NCBI GenBank assembly: GCA_017550285.1
Contig: JAFZPP010000040.1
Span: forward strand, 1-64,000
Direction: 5' to 3'
DNA length: 64,000 nt
Source: Oscillospiraceae bacterium
GTDB taxonomy: Bacteria > Bacillota > Clostridia > Oscillospirales > Ruminococcaceae
Part shown: positions 56 through 13,734 of the stretch, in pieces
Position numbering within the stretch: the first letter of the stretch is position 1
Layout of the letters: every line of letters begins with the position of its first letter
The notes under the pieces: model-generated
The model's database searches: none
What the model was told of the DNA's origin: nothing
What the model saw: the letters and a program-made list of their open reading frames with translations, nothing else
Program-made: the position numbers and the translations under genes

Positions 56-910
56 ATGAGAGACAGAACTCCGGATATTCAGATGTTTGAAGATACAATG
101 CAGATACTGAAACAAGGCTTTTACGAGAAAGATGGCAGAAAAATTCTGCTGAAACTCTCTACCAAGGAGAGGGAAGAGATACAGGTATACCTTCCTGACG
201 ATGTGAAGAACATCTGCTACAACACAGAATTCAAGCCGACTGCCGCTGAGAACGAATGCTGCACCCACAGCTGCGAGAATATAGACTCCTATGCGCTTGC
301 CAGAAAGCGAGTAGCAGAGGGCATATCGAAAGTACTTGTGCTGAATCTTGCAAGTCCCGTGCATCCGGGCGGCGGTGTTCGCAGAGGAGCAAGAGCGCAG
401 GAAGAGGATCTATGCAGAAAAAGCTCGCTGTTGTTGTCGCTTGAAAGCAAAACAGCCCGCAAATACTACGAGTATAACAAGAACCTGCACTCTTTCATGG
501 GTTCAGATGCTCTGATGCTCACACCCAGCGTGGAGATCATCAAGGACGAAAATGGGGAGCTGCTCGGCGATACTGTTGTGGTATCGGTACTCACCTGCGC
601 TGCGCCGAAGGTATCCGGCGGCAAGGAAGGCATGAGCGAAGCCGCATACAGGCAGCTTGTCTATAACCGCATTGTCGGGATGCTGAAAGCAGCGGCATTT
701 TTCGGATACAGAAACCTGATTCTCGGCGCATGGGGCTGCGGTGCCTACGGGAACGATGCGAGTGTGATCTCCGACCTGTTCCGCAGGGCGCTGAACGAGC
801 TGGATTATAACGGGTTCAAGGAGAAGGATCTGTTCAGCAGGATTGACTTCGCCGTGCTGGATCGCACGCCGGCTCAGTTCAATTATAAGCAGTTCAAGCG
901 GAACTTTTGA
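56..910 (+). CDS. TIGR02452-type poly(ADP-ribose) glycohydrolase-like (macro fold) protein
   Basis: A 284-residue soluble protein of the microbial PARG family, expected to hydrolyse ADP-ribose-containing substrates in the cytoplasm. The family signature is visible: a glycine triplet at residues 105-107 (HPGGGVRRGARAQEED) followed by the QEE catalytic element at 115-117, the Glu pair expected to act on the ribosyl bond. A late GAWGCGAYGND segment fits the second phosphate-binding loop of a macro-type fold. The ATG follows GAGGTG at good spacing. The gene is clearly richer in GC than the block starting at 911, so it probably belongs to the host backbone rather than to the acquired island. A link to the ADP-ribose-signalling genes at 6558-8118 is tempting but not shown. 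The family call is firm; the exact substrate is unknown. Confidence 0.85.
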   Translation: MRDRTPDIQMFEDTMQILKQGFYEKDGRKILLKLSTKEREEIQVYLPDDVKNICYNTEFKPTAAENECCTHSCENIDSYALARKRVAEGISKVLVLNLASPVHPGGGVRRGARAQEEDLCRKSSLLLSLESKTARKYYEYNKNLHSFMGSDALMLTPSVEIIKDENGELLGDTVVVSVLTCAAPKVSGGKEGMSEAAYRQLVYNRIVGMLKAAAFFGYRNLILGAWGCGAYGNDASVISDLFRRALNELDYNGFKEKDLFSRIDFAVLDRTPAQFNYKQFKRNF

Positions 911-1054
911 ATATAACTTACGTTCGTGAAATATATACAACATAGGTTTGTTAATACTAATACTACTATAATTAAATCATTGAGCAGAAACCTTATAACT
1001 CATCCAAATCAAGCAGCGATTAGTTGTGCAATATGTCGAAATTTCAAATTGATG

Positions 1055-1083
1055 TTGACATATAATTGATTATGTGCTATACT
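1055..1083 (+). promoter_or_regulatory. Promoter of the RiPP-like cluster
   Basis: TTGACA at 1055-1060, 17 bp, then TATACT at 1078-1083: a near-consensus housekeeping promoter about 40 bp before the first precursor start. It is the only strong promoter seen between 911 and the end of the UvrA-like gene. The rest of 911-1054 is AT-rich and shows nothing else I can name. Confidence 0.8.
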
Positions 1084-1124
1084 ATACATAATAAATCACT
1101 GTATTCAGTAGGAGTGATGTTAAA

Positions 1125-1244
1125 ATGTTCCAGAATATCTCAAAGATTGTTGTTAAGCCCAAGAAATGCAAGAAAGCAGAGTCTATTATTGTTGTTTCGC
1201 AGAGAATGCAATGCAGAACAACTCATAAGCGTAAAGATTGCTGA
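1125..1244 (+). CDS. RiPP precursor peptide A
   Basis: A 39-residue peptide too short for ordinary gene calling. It begins MFQNISKIVVKPKKCKK and ends QCRTTHKRKDC. The ATG follows AGGAGTG at normal spacing. It lies directly downstream of a strong promoter and upstream of a radical SAM maturase. Its paralogue at 1282 shares the MF.N..KIVV start, the KAE..IVV.QR middle and an identical 11-residue C-terminus, the pattern expected of a leader plus a conserved core. The core candidate CRTTHKRKDC is strongly basic, with Cys residues bracketing eight positions, one His and two Thr. This copy has one extra residue and an additional Cys (residue 15) compared with its paralogue. Precursor function is inferred from position, size and conservation; the modification is unknown. 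Confidence 0.8.
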   Translation: MFQNISKIVVKPKKCKKAESIIVVSQRMQCRTTHKRKDC

Positions 1245-1281
1245 CTTGTGTTTTAAATCATTACTTCAGGAGGATTTTACT

Positions 1282-1398
1282 ATGTTCAAAAATGTCAAGA
1301 AAATTGTTGTGACTACGAAGAAAGAAAAGGCTGAAACGGTGATTGTTGTGGGCCAGAGAAGTCAGTGCCGAACCACACATAAGCGCAAGGATTGCTAA
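1282..1398 (+). CDS. RiPP precursor peptide B
   Basis: A 38-residue peptide beginning MFKNVKKIVVTTKKEKAE and ending QCRTTHKRKDC. AGGAGG lies at ideal spacing before the ATG at 1282, so translation should be strong. An in-frame upstream extension to 1066 is open but unlikely, since it would run through peptide A in another frame and lacks a ribosome site as good as this one. Third-position differences between A and B within the shared codons, together with the conserved protein sequence, argue that both copies are under selection as peptides. Only the two tail Cys residues are present here, so these are the likely modification sites. A hairpin terminator follows about 25 bp after the stop. Confidence 0.82.
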   Translation: MFKNVKKIVVTTKKEKAETVIVVGQRSQCRTTHKRKDC

Positions 1399-1423
1399 TA
1401 GAGACATAAGCGATTATGGCATT

Positions 1424-1450
1424 AAAATCCCGATTCATTCGGGATTTTTT
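1424..1450 (+). terminator. Intrinsic terminator/attenuator between precursors and maturase
   Basis: A 10-bp perfect stem (1424-1433 with 1439-1448), loop TTCAT, ending in a T run. It stands between the precursor genes and the maturase, with no second promoter visible. Partial readthrough would give far more precursor than enzyme mRNA, a common layout in RiPP loci. Confidence 0.8.
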
Positions 1451-1475
1451 ATTTTATGAAAGGATTAGATTGTGG

Positions 1476-2801
1476 ATGTCCAGAGAATTCGATTTAGATG
1501 AGATACTTTCTTTCCCAGATCCTTTAGTAGAAAAGTACCTAGAGGGATACCATATAGTTTTGGCTCCGCAGAACCCAAACTGGATTATTTTAAATACTGA
1601 AGAGTATAATATGTTCAAATATCTTCAGGAAGGGAAATCCCTTCGTGAGGCATTAGAAAACTACTATTCTCAGTACTGCGATGATGAAAATGAATGCATT
1701 AGGGTAATGACAAATTTACTAGAACAGATTCACGATGTGGATTTTTCCTCCGATGCCATCATTTCTGAAGAAGAACCAATTGAGACAATTACGAAAAAAG
1801 TGCATATTGGTACTACTAATGGCTGTAATATGCGATGTAAGCACTGCTATATGGCAGCTGGAAAAACTCCGTTAGAAACAATTGACATTGATAATACTAT
1901 TCGAATTATAAAAGGTCTTAATAAGACATATGGCAAGCTCGAAATAGTTGTTTCAGGCGGAGAGCCTTTAACATATAAACATATCTACAATTTACTTGAG
2001 CACATTAAAGATAACTATATTATTCTGTTTACAAATGGGTCTTTGATAACAGAAGATAATGCTGATATCATTGCAGAGTGTTGTAATGAAGTACAGATTA
2101 GTTTCGAGGGCATAACCCCTGAATGCTATGGATTAGTCAGGGATATTGAAAAGTATGATGCTGTTATAAATGCCCTCAGATTGCTGAAAAATCGCAATGT
2201 TAAGATTGTTCTTGCTGTAACCTTGCTGCCTGACACAATGTACGACATTCAGAAAAACCTTATTGATTTTATTAAATCGCTGGATTATAATAACGTCGAG
2301 GTTAGAATCAACGATGATATTGAATTAAGTGGCAATGCTGTATCGATGGATATTACAAAACAGGATCAAATTAACTCAAATGAAATTGTAATTCAAATGA
2401 TAAGAGAATTAGATAGTATTGGATGTTCTGTTCAAAACAATGATATCCGAAACACACGTTTTACCAATTGTGGAATAGGTACTAGTGTTGTAATCAATTA
2501 CGATGGTAACGTATATCCATGCCATAAATTCTCTAGTTATTCAATTGCAAAATCAGCAGATGTAGATCAAATCATTGAAGAGTTCAATGTGTTGAATCGA
2601 CAAACATCAAATAACAATATTGTCAAGTGTCAAAATTGCGATCTGAAATATATATGCTCAGGAGGCTGCAGAATAGATCACTATTTGAAGAGCGGCTCTA
2701 TGACACAAGTATCCTGTGATGAAGAGTTTAAGAATCAGCAATTATTAAAATTAATTCGAGATTATCGTATGTACCGCGAAAAGGTGGAATATGAGCAATG
2801 A
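1476..2801 (+). CDS. Radical SAM/SPASM peptide maturase with N-terminal PqqD-like domain
   Basis: A 441-residue enzyme expected to bind the precursor leader and install a radical-based crosslink. Residues about 20-90 resemble a PqqD-like RiPP recognition element (WIILNTEEYNMFKYLQEGKS). The radical SAM cluster is CNMRCKHC (C117, C121, C124) with GGEP at 161-164. The C-terminus is a SPASM domain: C332, DGNVYPC (C349), then C385-X2-C388-X5-C394-X3-C398, and C414, enough for two auxiliary Fe-S clusters. I chose ATG 1476 because the longer open frame from 1416 runs through the terminator. GAAAGGA at 1458-1464 precedes it, and TTG 1470 is an alternative start. The gene overlaps the methyltransferase by ATGA. 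SPASM peptide enzymes often make thioether or C-C bonds; which one applies here is not readable. Confidence 0.9.
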   Translation: MSREFDLDEILSFPDPLVEKYLEGYHIVLAPQNPNWIILNTEEYNMFKYLQEGKSLREALENYYSQYCDDENECIRVMTNLLEQIHDVDFSSDAIISEEEPIETITKKVHIGTTNGCNMRCKHCYMAAGKTPLETIDIDNTIRIIKGLNKTYGKLEIVVSGGEPLTYKHIYNLLEHIKDNYIILFTNGSLITEDNADIIAECCNEVQISFEGITPECYGLVRDIEKYDAVINALRLLKNRNVKIVLAVTLLPDTMYDIQKNLIDFIKSLDYNNVEVRINDDIELSGNAVSMDITKQDQINSNEIVIQMIRELDSIGCSVQNNDIRNTRFTNCGIGTSVVINYDGNVYPCHKFSSYSIAKSADVDQIIEEFNVLNRQTSNNNIVKCQNCDLKYICSGGCRIDHYLKSGSMTQVSCDEEFKNQQLLKLIRDYRMYREKVEYEQ

Positions 2802-3517
2802 ACAATCTTCAGAGCTATTTAGATAATGAGACTATAGAATACTATAAATGGCTGTCTCAATTCGGATTGTTTACATATGAACAAAGTATAATAGCTTCTT
2901 ATTTTCCTAAAGGGTCACTTGTTTTAGATGTCGGTTGTGGAACAGGTAGAACAACATTAGGTTTAAAATCTCTCGGCTATCGTGTACATGGGATAGACTA
3001 CTCTGATAAGATGATAAGTAAGGCAATAGAGAATCTTCCTAGCACAGCATTTAGTGTGCAAAACGTACTTGCTTTAGAGTTCCCTGATAATTCATTTGAC
3101 TGTGCATTATTTTCATTCAATGGCCTGATGTTGGTAGGATCTTACTCAGATCGATTAAAGGCCATGTCGGAAATCATGAGAGTTGTTCGTAGAGATGGTG
3201 TATTCTTTTTTACCACGCCTTTTCTTGATAATAAAGTAAATGGAGAATACTGGGGTGAAAAAATAGCAAAATTCGGAAAACAGTTATCCGCCTTTTCTGA
3301 AGAAGAGTTATTACTATTAGGCGATGAAATAACTGATGAAGGAAGAATTTCATTTCAGCTACACGTGCCTTTCATAAGTGAAATCCATAAAATGATTGCA
3401 GAATCAAACTGCGAAATCGTATTTGAAGGAAGAAGACTAAATCTGTTTCCTGAAGAGACGGCAGAAGATGAACTAGATGACAATTATATATGGGTGGTGA
3501 AACATGGAAAAGTATAG
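2798..3517 (+). CDS. Class I SAM-dependent methyltransferase of the RiPP cluster
   Basis: A 239-residue Rossmann methyltransferase. Motif I is VLDVGCGTGRTTLGL (residues about 43-57), followed by the acidic strand HGIDYSDKMI that binds the SAM ribose, and a LEFPDNSFDCALF motif. There is no membrane segment. It is translationally coupled to the maturase (ATGA overlap) and overlaps the next gene by 14 bp, so the three enzymes form one transcription unit. The likely target is the modified peptide (His, Lys, Arg, Cys or C-terminal carboxylate), by position only. It resembles the Methyltransf_11/25 type, which does not reveal a substrate. Confidence 0.85.
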   Translation: MNNLQSYLDNETIEYYKWLSQFGLFTYEQSIIASYFPKGSLVLDVGCGTGRTTLGLKSLGYRVHGIDYSDKMISKAIENLPSTAFSVQNVLALEFPDNSFDCALFSFNGLMLVGSYSDRLKAMSEIMRVVRRDGVFFFTTPFLDNKVNGEYWGEKIAKFGKQLSAFSEEELLLLGDEITDEGRISFQLHVPFISEIHKMIAESNCEIVFEGRRLNLFPEETAEDELDDNYIWVVKHGKV

Positions 3518-5636
3518 TTATATTGGAATCACAACCAATAACCTAAAAGACATTTCAGTCGGATTTAATGATTATGAAATAATATACATCGGTGGCGCGA
3601 GTGGAAGCGGTAAATCAAGCCTTGCATTCGATACTATTGCATCAATTAGTGAGAATGAATATGGTAGTCTGACAAGCGACAATAAAGTTTCTGTTAAATT
3701 CAAAATAAAAGAATATAGTACTGTTTTAGTTCCAGCTACGCTGAAACAATTGAATTTCAATGTTAATCCACGTTCAATAATAATGACTTATTTTGGACTG
3801 TTCCCGCATATATCGAGCATTCTTTCAATATGTACAGGTATTCCGGCTGATAGCTTTTCTCTGAATGGGCAAGAACGATGCAGATACTGTAATGGGATTG
3901 GTTATGTCGATAAAATTGACGAGAAACTAATTGTGGACCCGGATAGACCAATTATTAACGGCCCGTTTAAGTGTTGGAATTCTTCATATTCCGATTTCTT
4001 TTCCCAATTGCTACATCTTTTTTGCACTGACAATGGGATTAACGAGAATAAACGCTTCTATGATTTAAGTCAAGCCGAAAGAGAAATGCTGCTTCGCTCA
4101 AAAGGCAACATTAAGTATACAATTCAGTATAAAGCTGGCGGTAGAACTAGAAGCAAGACAAGTGTATATATTGGTCCCATACTGGGATTAGAATTGCAAA
4201 AAAAAGATATGTTCGGATTGAATGCTGAAAAGTATTCAAAACCATGTCTTTGTCCTATGTGTCAGGGATCTCGCTTGTCGCACGATATAGGAATGATAAA
4301 TATACTCAAAGGCGTTACAGTAAATGATTTTTTTACAGCACATTTAGATGATGTAGAAAAAATAGTAAAAAAGATTCCTATAGAAAAGGCAAGTGCATAT
4401 TCGCGTGATTTGATCTTAAGGTTTATTAATGCTTGTAAGCAATTGAATATTTCATATCTCAGTTTATCTAGAGCTATTGGCACACTTTCCGGTGGAGAGC
4501 TACAGCGTTTACGAATGGTGCAGTTGATTTTAGGACGCTTAACAAATCTTCTGGTTATTTTGGATGAACCAACAAGTTCACTCGATCCACGTGAAGCAGA
4601 TGCAGTGATAAAGATAATCAAACAGTTAAGCAAAAACAACACCATTATTGTAGTTGATCATAATGATAAATTACGAAGAATAGCTCATCGCTCTTATTTC
4701 CTTGGTCCTAAAAGCGGTATTAACGGTGGATACCTAATTGATGAATCTGAATATAAAGCATCGCAGAAAAAGAGCAAGCCTAAAATCCCATCTTTAAGTG
4801 GAAGAAAAATAAAAGTTCAATTATTCTCAGACTATATAAAATATGGTGATCCATTAGTGATTACTGAAAATGCCTTGAATGGAATATGCGGGCGCTCGGG
4901 AATTGGTAAAACGACAATACTAAGAGACATATTACCTTATCAGATGGAAGGCTATAAGTATATTACACAAAAACCTATTAAAGCAGGCCGAAATTCTACA
5001 GTAGCTTCTTTTTCTGACATATTGGATTCAGTAAAAGCCTTTTATGCTCGCAAAACTCGCGCCGATAAAAAACTGTTTTCTTTAGCCCAAGATGGTGCAT
5101 GCCCTAAATGTCAAGGAAAGGGTTGTATTTTGATTGGCGACTATTATGATGAACAGTTATATATAGACTGTGAGTACTGTGAAGGAACTGGCTATTCAAC
5201 CAAGACTTTATCTCTCAAGGTGGACGGGATGAACATTTATGAGTTTTTAGATCAAAATATTGATACTATAATCCAAAACGGAATAAGCATATCTAAGAAG
5301 TTTGATTCAACCATCCGTTTATTGGCTAGTCTTGGATTAGGGCATTTAGTATTAAACCAGAAAACAAACACTTTATCTGGTGGAGAGAATCAAAGACTAA
5401 AACTGTCACAGGCACTTGGAGAAAGTTCCACAAAGATTTATGGTCTAGATGAGCCGTCAAAAGGACTTGGCCGAAGCGAGATGATTAGCCTAATTCAAGT
5501 GATATATGATAATATTGAAAGACAAGGCAAAACATTTATTGTATCAGAACATAATCCAGAATTTCTTGAATTGTGTTCATGCGTCAATGAACTCGTTTCT
5601 GACAAAAACATTGTACGCATACAAAGTAAAGTGTAA
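3504..5636 (+). CDS. Shortened UvrA-like twin ABC ATPase of the RiPP cluster
   Basis: A 710-residue paralogue of UvrA (true UvrA is about 940). Both ATPase halves are present. The first Walker A is GASGSGKSS (31-39), with signature LSGGELQRLRM near 328 and Walker B VILDEPTSSLDP. The second Walker A, GRSGIGKTT, lies near 462, with signature LSGGENQRLKL near 623. The UvrA zinc-finger pairs are recognisable (CRYCNGIGY, CLCPMCQGS, CPKCQGKG, CEYCEGTGY). The missing length falls mainly after the first Walker A, where UvrA carries its UvrB-binding region. Drug-producer UvrA-like proteins such as DrrC of daunorubicin producers confer self-resistance; by analogy this may protect DNA from, or bind, the peptide. 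It has no transmembrane domains, so it is not an exporter by itself. Confidence 0.88.
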   Translation: MEKYSYIGITTNNLKDISVGFNDYEIIYIGGASGSGKSSLAFDTIASISENEYGSLTSDNKVSVKFKIKEYSTVLVPATLKQLNFNVNPRSIIMTYFGLFPHISSILSICTGIPADSFSLNGQERCRYCNGIGYVDKIDEKLIVDPDRPIINGPFKCWNSSYSDFFSQLLHLFCTDNGINENKRFYDLSQAEREMLLRSKGNIKYTIQYKAGGRTRSKTSVYIGPILGLELQKKDMFGLNAEKYSKPCLCPMCQGSRLSHDIGMINILKGVTVNDFFTAHLDDVEKIVKKIPIEKASAYSRDLILRFINACKQLNISYLSLSRAIGTLSGGELQRLRMVQLILGRLTNLLVILDEPTSSLDPREADAVIKIIKQLSKNNTIIVVDHNDKLRRIAHRSYFLGPKSGINGGYLIDESEYKASQKKSKPKIPSLSGRKIKVQLFSDYIKYGDPLVITENALNGICGRSGIGKTTILRDILPYQMEGYKYITQKPIKAGRNSTVASFSDILDSVKAFYARKTRADKKLFSLAQDGACPKCQGKGCILIGDYYDEQLYIDCEYCEGTGYSTKTLSLKVDGMNIYEFLDQNIDTIIQNGISISKKFDSTIRLLASLGLGHLVLNQKTNTLSGGENQRLKLSQALGESSTKIYGLDEPSKGLGRSEMISLIQVIYDNIERQGKTFIVSEHNPEFLELCSCVNELVSDKNIVRIQSKV

Positions 5637-5643
5637 GTAACTG

Positions 5644-5663
5644 ATATCATACTTAAATGATAT
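5644..5663. repeat. Inverted repeat after the UvrA-like gene
   Basis: ATATCAT and ATGATAT arms of 7 bp around a 6-base spacer, just after the UvrA-like stop. There is no T run on the plus strand, so it is at best a weak terminator or mRNA end structure. Confidence 0.4.
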
Positions 5664-5721
5664 TGGCACGAAACAGAAAAAAACAATATGCAGCGCATAC
5701 AGTTGTAAAGTTTCTGAACAT

Positions 5722-5744
5722 CTGATATGATATAATGGTATCAG
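5722..5744. repeat. Operator-like inverted repeat over a TATAAT
   Basis: CTGATA and TATCAG arms separated by 11 bp, with TATAAT (5731-5736) in the middle. This could be a repressor site over a -10 box for the gene at 5885, but no good -35 box is present at the right distance. The remainder of 5637-5884 is AT-rich and otherwise unremarkable. Confidence 0.3.
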
Positions 5745-5884
5745 AAAAGCAAAGGCGCCGTTTTTCTAAATATGGCATAAGCACTAATGTATACACGAAT
5801 TAATAATGTTCTTGGAAAATGAAAAGAACAATTGTCGCTTCTGAAGGATAAACATTAATTTGTTATAATCGAAAGGAGAAGATA

Positions 5885-6385
5885 ATGAGACTTCATGATG
5901 AAAAAAGCAGGTTCTATTCGGAATTGTATCACAAAATTGATACAAAAAAAATCACAGCAGATGAATTTATAATCTTTGCAAACAAGTATAGAACTGATGA
6001 TTCAGATGACAATCATTCGGGATTCTTTGAGCTGTGTGCAAAATTTGTAGATATCAGCTTAAACGCAAAGAAATTTCCTGACCCAACAACTTGTGACGTC
6101 CCTGCCGTATTTTTATATGCGGATGTCAATGCAGCAAAAGCAGCATTCAAAGAATATGTAACTAATCATAAGTTAAGTGATATAGATGGAGTTCTTGAGG
6201 CAATAAGAATTATGCATATGTATGCTATTTTAGATGATGACACAAGAACTAAAAGTGCAACAATTACGCCGAAGAAACCCACTTCTAATACACAAGTCGG
6301 ATATGTAGGTAAATTTCATAATTTCCGTATGATACCTAATGAAATGTGGATAGAAATATGCCAGCAGATAAAAACGGAAATCTGA
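5885..6385 (+). CDS. Protein of unknown function in the acquired block
   Basis: A 166-residue acidic, soluble protein with no signal peptide or membrane helix. The ATG follows AAAGGAGAAG at good spacing. I do not recognise a family. The first 60 residues are rich in Asp, Glu and Lys and probably helical. A short Thr/Lys/Pro-rich linker (about 125-138) precedes a final 28-residue segment containing VGYVGKFHNFRMIPNEMW. It sits between the UvrA-like gene and the TIR-like gene and shares their low GC. A strong separate promoter downstream suggests it is not transcribed with the TIR gene. Whether it belongs to the RiPP locus, the defence locus or neither is open. Confidence 0.6.
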   Translation: MRLHDEKSRFYSELYHKIDTKKITADEFIIFANKYRTDDSDDNHSGFFELCAKFVDISLNAKKFPDPTTCDVPAVFLYADVNAAKAAFKEYVTNHKLSDIDGVLEAIRIMHMYAILDDDTRTKSATITPKKPTSNTQVGYVGKFHNFRMIPNEMWIEICQQIKTEI

Positions 6386-6516: not shown

Positions 6517-6557
6517 CTATTTGTTTACATGGGATAATATATTTGAGGAGGACTTGT

Positions 6558-7157
6558 ATGAGCAAACGAGTTTATATCAGCGCAGATTATGCGCCCTATA
6601 ATGGAGATCGAGATGTTGTAGATGAACTTCATGCATGGGGTAAAGACTCTAAGCACATGGTTGACTATATTGATACAGCATCTGTAGTTTCCGGAAGTGT
6701 TTCGGATGATCCTGACTGTCGCCCGTGTGATTTGAAAAAAGAGTTCAATGAACAAATCAATGTTTCATCGGCTGTTATTTTCGTTATTGGTGATAAAACT
6801 GCCTCTAGAACAGCTGGTAGTTCATGTAACAGAAATAGTAAAGGAATGTTCTGCTCATGTACTCCCTATAAGCAGAATGCAAATGGTACTGGCCAATGTA
6901 AGGTTTTTTATACTCCAGATGATAATAATAATGTGAATTATGTTAACACATATTCCTATCTTAAACATGAGTTTATGCAAGCTGAAAAGAAAGGAAAGAC
7001 AATTATTATTGTGTACAACTCGTTTTATCATCAGCCAAGCTGGTTGCCGTCTTATATGAAAGCCTATGAAGACATTGCTCACCCGTTTTGGAAAAAGAAT
7101 GCACTTGGTCAGAAAATTGGAGATTATCAGTATATAAAAGAAGCACTGGGATATTAA
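6558..7157 (+). CDS. TIR-like protein (DUF1863/ThsB type), candidate Thoeris sensor
   Basis: A 199-residue cytoplasmic protein. It begins MSKRVYISADYAPYNGDRD, matching the first strand of the TIR-like (MTH538/DUF1863) fold. It continues with a VSSAVIFVIGDKT strand (69-81) and a YSYLKHEFMQAEKKGKTIII helix-strand (132-151), in which E138 is the probable catalytic Glu of an NAD-cleaving TIR. The middle holds a Cys-rich insert (C90, C99, C101, C114). ATG 6558 is preferred over 6543 because GAGGAGG stands at the right distance. The next gene encodes a membrane macro protein, the partner expected in type II Thoeris, where the TIR makes histidine-ADP-ribose on infection. Family call from motif reading; system assignment from gene pairing. 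Confidence 0.78.
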   Translation: MSKRVYISADYAPYNGDRDVVDELHAWGKDSKHMVDYIDTASVVSGSVSDDPDCRPCDLKKEFNEQINVSSAVIFVIGDKTASRTAGSSCNRNSKGMFCSCTPYKQNANGTGQCKVFYTPDDNNNVNYVNTYSYLKHEFMQAEKKGKTIIIVYNSFYHQPSWLPSYMKAYEDIAHPFWKKNALGQKIGDYQYIKEALGY

Positions 7158-7212
7158 TAGTATTATGTTTTAATAGGGCTCAATTGATATATTACCAAGA
7201 GGAGTTTTCAAT

Positions 7213-8118
7213 TTGCTTAAATATAGGATACATACGATCTGGAAATCTTTAACAGGGGAAAAAACCACCTTAAAAGCCTTTACTAAGCTCATTCTTACTG
7301 CAATCGGGTGTATTTCTTCAGTGTTTACATTTGCCGTATTAATCAAAGATTGGGTAGGATTTGACAAGTTTGAACTATTGTGTAAAAAATATTGGCTTGC
7401 ACTGATACTTATAGGTTTCGTCGCTTCATTAATTATCAATCATGAAAAGATCTCATGCCATGGTTCAAAAGAAGATGATGATCTAATCATTGATGTTAAA
7501 ATTAATAGTCTATTTAAGATTGCAGCCTCCAGCTATGTCATTCCTACAAATACTTATTTTAGAACTATTATGGATGACGAGTATATTAGTCCTAACAGTG
7601 TCCAAGGTGCTTTTCAAACCAAATACTATAAAAAGTCACTTGATGAATTGAATGCCAAGATAGCTCAAAGTTTAGCTGATCAAGGCATTGTAGGTGTTGC
7701 AAGTCGAGACAATTATGGAAATGTTAAGAAATACCCGATTGGAACTGTAGCAAAAGTAACTCGTAAAAAGAAACACTATTATTTTGTTGCAATCTGTGAT
7801 GTAAATGAGTTTGGAAAGCCCATACGTCAGAATTATGGTAATGTTACAGATGCTCTTAACGGACTAATTGCAACAATTAATAGATGTGGTCACTGTGATG
7901 ATTTAGCAATACCACTTATCGGAACAGGAAGAGCAGCTATTAGAGAAGCAACCATTGATAAGGTAGTTCAGGACACAATAGACTTCTTTTTGGATTCAAA
8001 TGATAAAATTGCTAGGAAACTAGTAATATGCATTAGTCCTAAAGATTATTGTGATGGCAAAGTCAATATCAAAAAAATAGCCAATTACCTTGAATTCAAA
8101 TGTGAATTTGATAAGTGA
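7213..8118 (+). CDS. Two-helix membrane protein with macro domain, candidate Thoeris effector
   Basis: A 301-residue protein starting at TTG 7213 (no ATG nearby; AGAGGAG 8 bp upstream). Two transmembrane helices (about 24-47 and 60-78) are followed by a cytoplasmic macro-type domain (about 90-295). That domain includes YPIGTVAKVTRKKKHYYFVA and the phosphate-binding strand-loop LAIPLIGTGRAAI (231-243). In type II Thoeris the macro domain of such TM-macro effectors senses a TIR-made ADP-ribose conjugate and the membrane part disrupts the cell. The gene lies 55 bp after the TIR-like gene with the same low GC. A free-standing macro hydrolase is an alternative, but the membrane anchor argues for an effector. 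Confidence 0.78.
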   Translation: MLKYRIHTIWKSLTGEKTTLKAFTKLILTAIGCISSVFTFAVLIKDWVGFDKFELLCKKYWLALILIGFVASLIINHEKISCHGSKEDDDLIIDVKINSLFKIAASSYVIPTNTYFRTIMDDEYISPNSVQGAFQTKYYKKSLDELNAKIAQSLADQGIVGVASRDNYGNVKKYPIGTVAKVTRKKKHYYFVAICDVNEFGKPIRQNYGNVTDALNGLIATINRCGHCDDLAIPLIGTGRAAIREATIDKVVQDTIDFFLDSNDKIARKLVICISPKDYCDGKVNIKKIANYLEFKCEFDK

Positions 8119-11700: not shown

Positions 11701-13734
11701 ATTATTTCCGATGAATTTGACCTGATTGTCTGCGGTATCGGTCAGTACAGAGCTTTCAATCAGTTCCAGACCCGACGGCAGCGGCAGTGAAAACCTGATA
11801 TCCGGATTGCTGCTGTCGGCAAAGCCGGAGCGGATCCAGTCATTCAGATCGTACTTGATACTGAAGTTTGCGATTCCGCCGATAATCTTTGCTGCTGTAC
11901 TAACGGTTACAGACGGCGTATCATTTTTGAACACCGTCGCTCTTGCATCGTCCAGTACGGTACAGCCTGTGAAAGCCTTTTCAGCAAACTTGAAATATCC
12001 CGCTTTTTCTCCGAGATCAAACAGGCTTGTACAGTCTGCAAACGCCTCATTTTTTACCTCGTCAATATTTTTGGGGAGTATCACACTTCTCAGAGAAGTG
12101 CATCCGTGAAAAGCCCGTTCCGGAATCACCCTGATTGCATCCGGAAGCTCTGCGCTGCGAAGTGAGATACAGCCTTCAAATGCAGCAGTGGATATGGATG
12201 ATACAGTCTCAGGGAGTGTAATCTGCTTCAGCGAAACACAGTTCATGAATGTGTATGCACCGATCGTTGTCAGAGATGCAGGCAGCTGAACCTCCGTAAG
12301 CGAAATGTCATCCGAAAAGGTACCAAGCGTTTGGGAACTGCGCAGTTCTGTGATCTGATCGGACAGATATACCTTTTGCAGCATATCACAGCCCGCCAGC
12401 GCACCGCTGCCAAGCGTTGTAACCGACTCCGGAATCGTCATTTCTGTAAGGCTGTCACAATTATAGAAACAGTTATCTCCGATCAATGCGGTCTTTTCAG
12501 GAATCTCGATATCTTTCAATGACACGCAGTTTTCAAACACACCGCTGCCTATGTATTTGATTTCCCTGTGAAGCGGGATTGCGGAAAGAGATTCACACCC
12601 GCTGAACAGTTCGTCCTCGAGCCGGCTGACCGTTTCAGGCAAATCAACATTTTCAAGAGCAGTGCAGCCCTTAAACACTGCTGCACCGACTTTTGTGACT
12701 GTTTCCGGCAATGCAATATTTTTCAGTGCGCTGCATCCGGAAAAAGTATAAGCCTCAAGTTCGCTGAGTTCCGCAGGAAATGTGATCTGTTCCAGTGAAA
12801 TACAGCCTGAAAACGTACCCGCTCTGTCGGCGGATTTTAATTTTGTAATATATTTCGGAAGAGTGATCTCTTTCAGTGACTTACAATCAGAAAAGACTGC
12901 GCTGCCAAGTGAAGTCACCGTGTCCGGAATGGTCAGAGTGACAATACCGCTGCCTGAAAAAGCCATATTTCCGATCGCAGTTACAGAATCGGGTATAACT
13001 GCGCTGCACAGTGAAACACAGCCTGCAAACGCGCTTTTACCGATATAATCAATATTGGTATTGAGTGAGATTTCAGAAATCTGTGCACAGCCGCTGAATG
13101 TATTGTCTTCAATTCTTGTTACAGACTCCGGCAGTACAACTGTCCGCAGACTGCTGCATCCGGCAAACGCACCGTCCTGAATACTTGTGATGCTTTCAGG
13201 CAGTACTGCGGATACCAGCGAAATGCATCCGTGAAATGCATCGTGATTGATGCGCGTAACTGTGTCGGGTATTGTGACTTCTGTCAGCTTATGATTGCCG
13301 GAAAAAGCAGCATATCCGATCTCTTTGACCGGTAAGCCGCCAAGCGTTTCCGGAATGGAAACAGCCGCTTCATCCCCGATGTAGCTGTCAATAACAGTAT
13401 TTCCGGCGGAGATATAGTATCTGAAACCATTTTCTTCTGCCATGGATACTGCTTTTTTCGGTACAGCTTTTGCGGCTTCATATGTTCCCGTTGTCGTCGT
13501 ACCGGTTGCTGTTCCTGCTGCGGGAATGTCCGTAACGGCAGTCTCTTCCGCGATAAACGCGATGCTCCCTTCTGAACAGGACATGTCCGGCAATACGTCC
13601 GCTGATTCCAATACATCTGAAGCCTCATCAGATAAGGCTTTTGCTGATAAAACAATCGGCGCATTCGTACATATCACCGTTAAAGCCAGAGCTCCGCTGA
13701 TCAGTGATTTGCATAATTGTTTGATGTGTTTCAT
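8710..13734 (-). CDS. LPXTG-anchored surface protein with BspA-type leucine-rich repeats
   Basis: A 1674-residue cell-wall protein. It has a signal peptide (1-31, ending VLSAKA), then about 20 LRR_5/BspA repeats from roughly 115 to 610 with the recurring pattern AF.GC.SL..I.LPE.V. Ig-like and mixed beta domains follow, with a helical charged region around 1160-1230. Next come a carboxypeptidase-regulatory-like strand unit (YAWDVPEGRYYVTCEKEGYA), a Big_2-like bacterial Ig domain (DKNGIVTGISEGETKITV), and a sortase signal LPQTG at about 1623 with a hydrophobic segment and an RRRK tail. BspA repeats usually mediate adhesion to host or other cells. The ATG follows AAAGGAG. A related LRR fragment lies upstream at 14328. 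The ligand cannot be inferred. Confidence 0.9.
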   Translation of the reverse strand: MKHIKQLCKSLISGALALTVICTNAPIVLSAKALSDEASDVLESADVLPDMSCSEGSIAFIAEETAVTDIPAAGTATGTTTTGTYEAAKAVPKKAVSMAEENGFRYYISAGNTVIDSYIGDEAAVSIPETLGGLPVKEIGYAAFSGNHKLTEVTIPDTVTRINHDAFHGCISLVSAVLPESITSIQDGAFAGCSSLRTVVLPESVTRIEDNTFSGCAQISEISLNTNIDYIGKSAFAGCVSLCSAVIPDSVTAIGNMAFSGSGIVTLTIPDTVTSLGSAVFSDCKSLKEITLPKYITKLKSADRAGTFSGCISLEQITFPAELSELEAYTFSGCSALKNIALPETVTKVGAAVFKGCTALENVDLPETVSRLEDELFSGCESLSAIPLHREIKYIGSGVFENCVSLKDIEIPEKTALIGDNCFYNCDSLTEMTIPESVTTLGSGALAGCDMLQKVYLSDQITELRSSQTLGTFSDDISLTEVQLPASLTTIGAYTFMNCVSLKQITLPETVSSISTAAFEGCISLRSAELPDAIRVIPERAFHGCTSLRSVILPKNIDEVKNEAFADCTSLFDLGEKAGYFKFAEKAFTGCTVLDDARATVFKNDTPSVTVSTAAKIIGGIANFSIKYDLNDWIRSGFADSSNPDIRFSLPLPSGLELIESSVLTDTADNQVKFIGNNHDLVTLSKPAGTLRFSARITAYTENDYEIDPKISFRSHGYSWVQGIPGMTLTVPKITISAQGTISSRDCDIYGIAEPDKKVKIFSDGELVATVKSNPYTGKYTASVSLPEKKDDTAYLIYAASGVDRTDEISVVYTDAKPSIRKVDLIYCTHAPSDTNDYMETLDITGVFTRGERPVIQYYPKGNMRFKIEATHPERISCIVVRSRKGSESKCLVARYDETEQAFITKENQYFDESNHNYVPGSLNFIIFEKSVDVIDEAELDALRTQLDTNEIEFVQIDDKSTVSGYRNTDGERLTDCYYYGASSVSIDGKSVTAQQIADAPETYGFSKCTKKLLRKGVLYTIYGKIIRYSEVDLNSDSTDAALDRSLLDQVNDAYNKAGGRSYDMKDYLIFAQVAAADDGSVPMYISVQAEAQKNRPQYVENDLRKELDEFRSRGTIELRYNSAHITAADGEDDADEKTKGEKSSDAATESAKNNVKNSFLDLLFKKSKIKKIIDTGKDAKDIYDAVEEEKNKEDTPSTGSKERDAYRKQIDDLQSGFHIWSTFNEKIVNLLPGGGELLGPATEGVDEQVPDLIEKEYRHNDELLKYLDPAYLEDGQVQTILDPSGIVYEGIRSKTVSGAKVTCYVLNEDTGEWEVWNAADYDQTNPMITDAAGSYAWDVPEGRYYVTCEKEGYALIKSNEFDVAPPKFDLDFNLSSQTAPSVSNYVLSENQITIRFSKVMDIATVNSETVSIDGWNGKMSITPQLYAPDDRCTDSFVITGDFSKMAVFTLSVNSKTTDYTGAALTAYSAEIRNIYADLILEKDHVKLISEDTYQIRANKKTVSYASADPKIAVADKNGIVTGISEGETKITVLDETGKEAVLTISVEERLVLDADKMNLLCEQAITDYQKKNETAAASAVCKIVDNKCVIELKDKDGNLLDTYTIDPNTGKGTDSANKAVDLPQTGTNAVNDWMYAVAAILLIGFGVLTLQRSGVYRRRKSVLGAVQDPENEL

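Follow-up and report, generated by a model that had tools for sequence, protein, structure and literature searches.

A compact RiPP-like locus and a clade of UvrA-like ATPases found beside RiPP-type maturases

Why would a UvrA-like ATPase be encoded together with short peptides and the enzymes that appear to modify them? The question is raised by a locus at positions 1055–5636 of a 64,000-nucleotide stretch of DNA from an Oscillospiraceae bacterium with a 3.4 Mb genome (positions 1 to 64,000 of contig JAFZPP010000040.1, GenBank assembly GCA_017550285.1; the whole stretch is hereafter called the window). The locus contains, in this order and all on the plus strand, a promoter-like site, two short peptide genes, a radical S-adenosylmethionine (SAM)/SPASM enzyme, a methyltransferase and the UvrA-like protein. 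These genes, their coordinates and order, the paralogy of the two peptides and the overlap of the enzyme genes were as described in a first-pass annotation made from the sequence alone. The best reading of the locus is a compact, transporter-less cassette of the type that makes ribosomally synthesized and post-translationally modified peptides (RiPPs), which supports the RiPP-like character proposed in that annotation. We found that the ATPase belongs to a separate clade whose genes adjoined a RiPP-type maturase in 29 of 30 loci, and we put the probability that the product acts at DNA and that the ATPase protects its maker at about 0.5.

A UvrA-like clade adjoining RiPP-type maturases

The UvrA-like protein (3504–5636, plus strand, 710 residues) contains two Walker A, two LSGGE, two LDEP and four CxxC motifs, and the UvrA DNA-binding domain (PF17755) was detected by Pfam at 38.5 bits; the UvrA-like twin ATPase proposed before, here a twin ATP-binding cassette (ABC) ATPase with a UvrA_DNA-bind insertion domain, agrees with motifs, Pfam, tree and fold. 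Canonical repair UvrA was rejected as a candidate: the protein scored 299.1 bits against TIGR00630 (cut-off 729.8) and had no UvrB-binding domain. A full-length repair UvrA (1444 bits) is encoded elsewhere in the same genome. In the match to the UvrA profile, positions 52–262 of 924 were left without a match, and the matches on either side are separated by only 59 residues; we take the skipped positions to be where the UvrB-binding domain lies, and judging from the alignment there is no room for this domain. The structure model (mean predicted local distance difference test score, pLDDT, 84.9) fitted UvrA structures, and the highest target-normalised TM-score among the 50 matches listed was that of Ecm16 (7sh1; 0.81 at 3.6 Å). 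Two ABC modules, an insertion domain and the lack of a UvrB-binding domain correspond to the architecture of class II UvrA-like proteins.

Three UvrA-like sequences were aligned, and the alignment was used to scan 84,980 species genomes. Two of these seeds had been noticed through their RiPP neighbours; the scan itself used the UvrA sequence alone. It returned 46 loci: 30 of RiPP-linked kind (by our own sorting: L025–L045, L047, L049, L057, L059 and L061–L065), 11 with large UvrA/UvrA2 proteins and 5 short ABC matches. Among the 30, 22 were full-length (707–718 residues) and were included in the tree, and 8 (L045, L047, L049, L057 and L061–L064) were interrupted, contig-cut or masked and were assigned to the clade kind by partial match alone; the precursors of L032 and of the seed L022 are identical, and the two are very probably one locus. 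A RiPP-type maturase adjoined the UvrA-like gene in 29 of the 30 loci, including all 22 full-length ones, the last locus (L061) being cut by a contig end. The maturase lay directly upstream in 27 loci, and an ATP-grasp enzyme lay directly downstream in 2. Neighbours were a FibroRumin-type radical SAM enzyme (21 loci), another radical SAM enzyme (5; best model PapB, 133–146 bits for the three tested, cut-off 340), ATP-grasp enzymes (2; MvdC, MvdD and SAV_5884 models, 169–205 bits, all below cut-off) and a ThiF-type pair (1), with none visible in one locus. The recurring set of peptide, maturase and UvrA-like gene predicted by the first-pass annotation was therefore real and wider than imagined, and among the loci examined the methyltransferase was special to the window.

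These counts make it very improbable that the pairing is a matter of chance or an operon leftover, with an unrelated UvrA paralogue behind a genuine radical SAM RiPP locus. Such a reading would fit the finding that the complete window set (tail, maturase, methyltransferase and UvrA-like gene) occurred only once, and that no close maturase relative was found in searches of 297, 30 and 391 genomes (in the two larger ones, only 4–5 candidates from each genome were scored; the 30-genome search gave one weak match, 26% identity). However, when 21 control loci (10 DrrC-like and 11 canonical) were searched with radical SAM, ThiF and ATP-grasp queries, only one, L015, had matches, a rough control because seven of these loci were only ~5 kb long. 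This one locus has itself a radical SAM-UvrA-radical SAM arrangement (L082:5086–9960, minus strand: a 478-residue radical SAM/SPASM enzyme, a 777-residue UvrA-like protein and a 346-residue radical SAM enzyme); it lies outside the RiPP-linked clade and is probably a separate, independent recruitment.

The tree included 25 RiPP-linked proteins (the window, two plasmid loci and 22 scan loci), 10 of DrrC-like and 6 of canonical type; neither Ecm16 nor DrrC was among them, and the root was placed at the midpoint for drawing. All 25 RiPP-linked proteins (~700 residues) were on one side of a branch with support of 100/99, which was present in 100% of 200 bootstrap trees. The clade was separate from the DrrC-like proteins included. 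The comparison with DrrC that had been made for the window protein thus held for the architecture, in which Ecm16 was the best fit, and did not hold for the grouping. Within the clade, the ThiF-type pair branched beside the rest, followed by the window protein (100/99) and then the 22 others, among which the FibroRumin, PapB-like and graspetide types were intermixed. In 391 genomes of the window's class, a UvrA search (2 candidates scored per genome, E 1e-100) detected no other clade member; apart from the window protein it returned 7 proteins of DrrC-like type, whose open frames have 751–781 residues. Scans of viral contigs with the window protein and with the query A1 led nowhere.

Members of the clade also occurred on plasmids. 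The window protein matched 755 plasmid records, the best 20 of which were listed; the top match was a Campylobacter plasmid (34.0% identity, 335 bits), and the others among these 20 had 28–30% identity, mostly with 184–216 bits and one with 263 bits summed over two pieces. The Campylobacter plasmid encodes two FibroRumin precursors, a FibroRumin maturase and then the UvrA-like gene, and the same order was found on a contig from another genome of the window's family, in which the UvrA-like gene is cut by the contig end. FibroRumin hosts belonged to Bacillota, Bacteroidota, Spirochaetota, Synergistota and Pseudomonadota, plus Campylobacterota; the cores, of two Cys-rich precursor types, were near-invariant across phyla. 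In two loci (L032:716–913 and L033:5372–5578), a single peptide (CNCTACNSC...C..CISQCTGCK) seems to combine both usual cores, which would suggest paired action of the products. On Moraxella and Acinetobacter plasmids, a gene for a Cys-rich peptide is accompanied by those for two ThiF-type enzymes and for a UvrA-like protein of the clade kind; the ThiF-type precursors of Moraxella, Acinetobacter and Ignatzschineria (L042) have a common CCTRxCTR and end with NAGVLQY, and the cores were alike in two of the three. Another example involved relatives of Treponema (L043:6980–10378 and L049:7001–11044), in which an MvdC/MvdD-like ATP-grasp enzyme comes directly after the UvrA-like gene, along with short peptides that end with GMLVA; L049 also has a Cys-rich peptide and a radical SAM enzyme at 11760–13305.

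The association of one clade with five maturase families and three chemistries (radical SAM, ATP-grasp and ThiF) points to a shared site of product action, and is best explained if the ATPase responds to what the products do and not to how they are made. PF17755 was present in all 23 clade members tested and, judged by its domains, the clade appears to retain what an Ecm16-type protein needs. A role in maturation or hand-over, in which the ATPase would spend ATP on the complex of maturase and peptide to release or load the product, with no role at DNA, seems unlikely. It would be consistent with the tight linkage of the two genes, which overlapped or were at most 18 nucleotides apart in 20 of 24 pairs measured (the other four had three gaps of 95–153 nucleotides and one of 598 at an interrupted frame), and with a chain of the methyl-coenzyme M reductase activation complex among the distant fold relatives (8s7v, rank 40, query-normalised TM-score 0.40). 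However, the retained DNA-binding insertion domain argues against it, as do the unrelated radical SAM, ATP-grasp and ThiF partners, with which a common enzyme interface is unlikely.

The conserved tail and the enzymes of the window locus

The two precursor peptides are encoded at 1125–1244 (peptide 1, 39 residues, AGGAG upstream) and 1282–1398 (peptide 2, 38 residues, AGGAGG upstream), both on the plus strand, and terminate with QRxQCRTTHKRKDC directly at the stop codon. The tail is QRMQCRTTHKRKDC in peptide 1 (codons 1200–1241) and QRSQCRTTHKRKDC in peptide 2 (codons 1354–1395). When the paralogs were compared, the last 14 codons included 7 identical, 6 silent and 1 replacement, and the leader codons 8 identical, 6 silent and 9 replacement plus one gap, and because of this pattern the peptides look like real genes. 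The tail is basic (+3.8 at pH 7), and the precursors have an isoelectric point (pI) of 10.2.

When 72,556 plasmid records were searched at the protein level with peptide 2, a single match (E 0.6) was obtained, on Moraxella osloensis plasmid pSKB0120-5; it covered the final 14 residues, QRSQCRTTHKRKDC, and was 100% identical. The Moraxella tail is part of a 55-residue open reading frame (ORF) directly upstream of a radical SAM gene that resembles the window maturase and had already been found as a match to it. The tail codons of Moraxella and of peptide 2 included 3 identical, 11 silent and 0 replacement. The Moraxella leader is acidic (pI 4.3) and barely aligns with the window leaders; the radical SAM gene is interrupted by an IS5-like element, and its pieces were 25% (E 2e-20) and 34% (E 7e-16) identical to the window maturase in a two-record file. 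Because the 14 residues are identical and the codons silently changed, the tail is probably the functional part, either conserved across a very great evolutionary distance or transferred with codon turnover and its residues kept. The first-pass annotation had looked to homologs of the maturase with unrelated substrates as a point against it, and the one homolog with a matching peptide, that of Moraxella with its identical tail, was favourable. In 82 collected sequences (0.9 Mb, overlapping copies included) the next-best tail score was 42, versus 76–81. No further peptide copy was detected in the window genome, a search of 291 genomes of the class with peptide 2 returned only the window's own, the tail pattern had 0 matches in viral contigs and peptide 2 had no match in phages. 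Just upstream of the Moraxella peptide (L024:5051–5701) is a small protein with an RNxxxH motif (RSLRNRIAHH), which by eye we take to be abortive-infection-like.

The putative peptide maturase (1476–2801, plus strand, 441 residues) was identified as a radical SAM/SPASM enzyme by Pfam, NCBIfam and motifs. It contains the motif C117xxxC121xxC124 for the radical SAM 4Fe-4S cluster (CNMRCKHC, codons 1824–1847, plus strand) and all seven SPASM Cys residues that had been read before (C332, C349, C385, C388, C394, C398 and C414). The Radical_SAM domain scored 77.3 bits in Pfam; SPASM scored 51.3 bits in NCBIfam (cut-off 27) and 19.5 bits in Pfam, slightly below the cut-off of 21.5. Such motifs, next to short precursors with a conserved part, are those of RiPP radical SAM/SPASM enzymes in general. 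A PqqD-like domain had also been claimed; no Pfam match to it was found in the N-terminus even at E 10, and the structure model of this enzyme was poor (mean pLDDT 49.0). The nearest named NCBIfam family was the StsB sactipeptide maturase (NF045574), with 114.1 bits over residues 11–412 versus a cut-off of 625, so the enzyme was not assigned to it; among the 25 best of 61 families the general SPASM domain model was the only one to exceed its cut-off, in line with the earlier view that this core and gene set are not known from a described class.

Scans of genome contigs and viral contigs for maturase relatives led nowhere. More distant radical SAM enzymes (L012, L013 and L080) had 22–23% identity and no such tail nearby. 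One of them, on a Treponema saccharophilum plasmid (L012:5992–10740), is StsB-like (146.7 bits, below cut-off) and lies near a methyltransferase, a helicase ORF and small ORFs with Cys; this locus was set aside as a distant look-alike, in which an SNF2-like helicase (by eye) replaces the UvrA-like gene and the tail is absent. Identity of the window maturase to the FibroRumin maturase was 24% over the aligned part. The window peptides had no match to TIGR04135 and were not assigned to FibroRumin, and TIGR04136 had no match in the window genome at E 1e-60 (5 of 8 candidates scored).

The methyltransferase (2798–3517, plus strand, 239 residues), assigned to class I SAM-dependent enzymes by Pfam, NCBIfam and motif, contains DVGCGTG and matched Methyltransf_11 (71.1 bits), in agreement with the SAM methyltransferase claimed before. 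It overlaps the maturase gene by 4 nucleotides and the UvrA-like gene by 14. No match to it was detected at E 1e-4 among the proteins called in 41 loci of the UvrA scan, so it appears special to the window locus. The promoter-like site at 1055–1083 (plus strand; TTGACA-17-TATACT, 11 of 12 matches, TG before the second hexamer) bears out the strong promoter of the first-pass annotation and ranked best among 21 sites within 900–5900, a count that does not exceed that of shuffles (22.8). A terminator-like hairpin (1424–1448, plus strand) separates peptide 2 from the enzyme genes and would keep the peptide message above the enzyme message; the region has 3 such hairpins, not above chance (shuffle mean 2.2).

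Proposed role and neighboring genes

The reading that we prefer runs as follows. Two precursors would carry a common basic tail with two Cys behind diverged leaders. The radical SAM/SPASM enzyme would modify the tail, with Cys thioether crosslinking as the most likely reaction, since its nearest named family is a sactipeptide maturase, and the methyltransferase would methylate it. The ATPase, of class II type, would act on the finished peptide at DNA: it would sense product-bearing DNA and clear the product using ATP. The maker would be protected in this way, in analogy to the proposal for Ecm16 and echinomycin.

The genes around the clade members were also analyzed. The neighbor set included 152 proteins of at least 130 residues in 29 loci (L063 was not entered), 134 of which, from 26 loci, were scanned; open-ended frames, proteins of at least 900 residues, three maturase genes of L043 and L049 and four genes of L061 were left out, L057 and L062 yielded no neighbor that passed, and the control set was 56 of 61, with one L051 gene left out. 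No transporter or peptidase gene is present within the window locus, in agreement with the first-pass annotation, and no exporter or peptidase family was found among the Pfam families matched by at least two of the 134 neighbors, the commonest being in 4. An ordinary bacteriocin with its exporter is accordingly disfavored.

The lack of a recurring exporter would also suit an intracellular defense or addiction module, in which the modified peptide and the ATPase are two halves and the ATPase is sensor or effector and not antidote; we regard this, the main alternative, as possible though doubtful. It would agree with the near-fixed FibroRumin cores, with the window tail unchanged in Moraxella and with the similar ThiF-type cores, as well as with defense genes near several loci. 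Gabija occurs near L042 (GajA 708 bits, GajB 444 bits), the Acinetobacter locus has BrxL as a neighbor and the Campylobacter locus toxin-antitoxin genes, and in L065 the ATPase is 4.7 kb away from a PD-T4-6 match. A Thoeris-type pair consisting of ThsB (TIR-like, 325.8 bits) and ThsA (macro-domain, 137.9 bits) is right behind the window locus (6543–8118); a microbial PARG-type protein (56–910; TIGR02452, 160.4 bits) closely precedes the locus and is encoded on its strand. PADLOC gave 163 families for the 134 neighbors versus 9 for the 56 controls, a comparison that counts models and not proteins and is only suggestive. However, only 4 of 10 neighbors examined singly at 1e-15 had a PADLOC match, mobile-element genes were also among the neighbors, and the window enzymes themselves had only generic matches (viperin-like, methyltransferase and ABC) and were not assigned to a known anti-phage system; mad3 and mad8 matches of the UvrA-like protein are, in our reading, generic ABC similarity. 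A broader form of this idea is similarly tentative: one UvrA-like clade, in six phyla and sometimes on plasmids or near defense genes, could together with a near-invariant modified peptide form chemistry-independent devices that guard or attack DNA inside the cell (anti-phage or addiction), with no exported antibiotic. The invariant part of the window type would then be the 14-residue tail, unchanged from Clostridia to a gammaproteobacterium.

Several points weigh against DNA-directed self-protection. The product, its crosslink and its DNA binding are all predictions. The window ATPase is on a long branch (1.69), which makes its placement less sure. The Moraxella match to peptide 2 would mean little by its E value alone and gains meaning from the adjoining radical SAM gene; moreover, pSKB0120-5 carries a broken maturase gene and has neither a UvrA-like gene nor a real methyltransferase match, so the tail also occurs where the ATPase is missing. 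The two FibroRumin precursors that were computed are acidic and Cys-rich, in contrast to the basic window tail, and with precursors chemically unlike one another a shared DNA target is not obvious. Invariant cores are as compatible with a fixed role inside the cell as with an antibiotic, and UvrA-like ATPases could act on proteins.

Comparison with known systems

In the available text of PMC10192343, Ecm16 binds DNA via its insertion domain and prefers echinomycin-bound DNA; it needs its ATPase, and the resistance is independent of UvrABCD. DrrC and MtrX are further examples of UvrA-like self-resistance in the available text of PMC10413001, which also places RiPPs among actinobacterial clusters near uvrA, the saccharide class being the one studied; the UvrA-RiPP pairing may have been glimpsed there. 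In searches of the openly licensed literature we found no description of a pairing of UvrA or excinuclease with RiPPs (including ranthipeptides, sactipeptides, graspetides and FibroRumin), and the string uvra stood for UVRAG in one paper and for a typing gene in another. Loci for small-molecule DNA binders are known to include UvrA-like self-resistance genes, and the RiPP-adjoining clade would predict hidden ribosomal peptides that act at DNA, for which it could serve as a simple gene marker. The unchanged 14-residue tail makes the question of the target directly testable.

Like Ecm16 and DrrC, the window protein is a twin ABC ATPase that has kept the insertion domain, lacks the UvrB-binding domain and lies inside a biosynthetic locus. 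In contrast to them, its clade has a length of ~700 residues and is separate from the DrrC-like proteins included, and its resistance role is predicted; Ecm16 and DrrC occur in polyketide or nonribosomal clusters, whereas the clade occurs in RiPP loci with no recurring transporter. The window locus shares with FibroRumin (TIGR04135/TIGR04136) the tandem short precursors and the radical SAM/SPASM maturase, and the FibroRumin maturase is immediately followed by a UvrA-like gene belonging to the clade of the window protein, but FibroRumin precursors are Cys-rich and matched by TIGR04135, unlike the window peptides, and the maturases differ. StsB is the top NCBIfam match of the maturase, although with a score far under the cut-off. 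Finally, the pSKB0120-5 locus of Moraxella osloensis, despite its acidic leader, interrupted radical SAM gene and lack of methyltransferase and UvrA-like genes, shares with the window the identical tail and a distantly related radical SAM enzyme.

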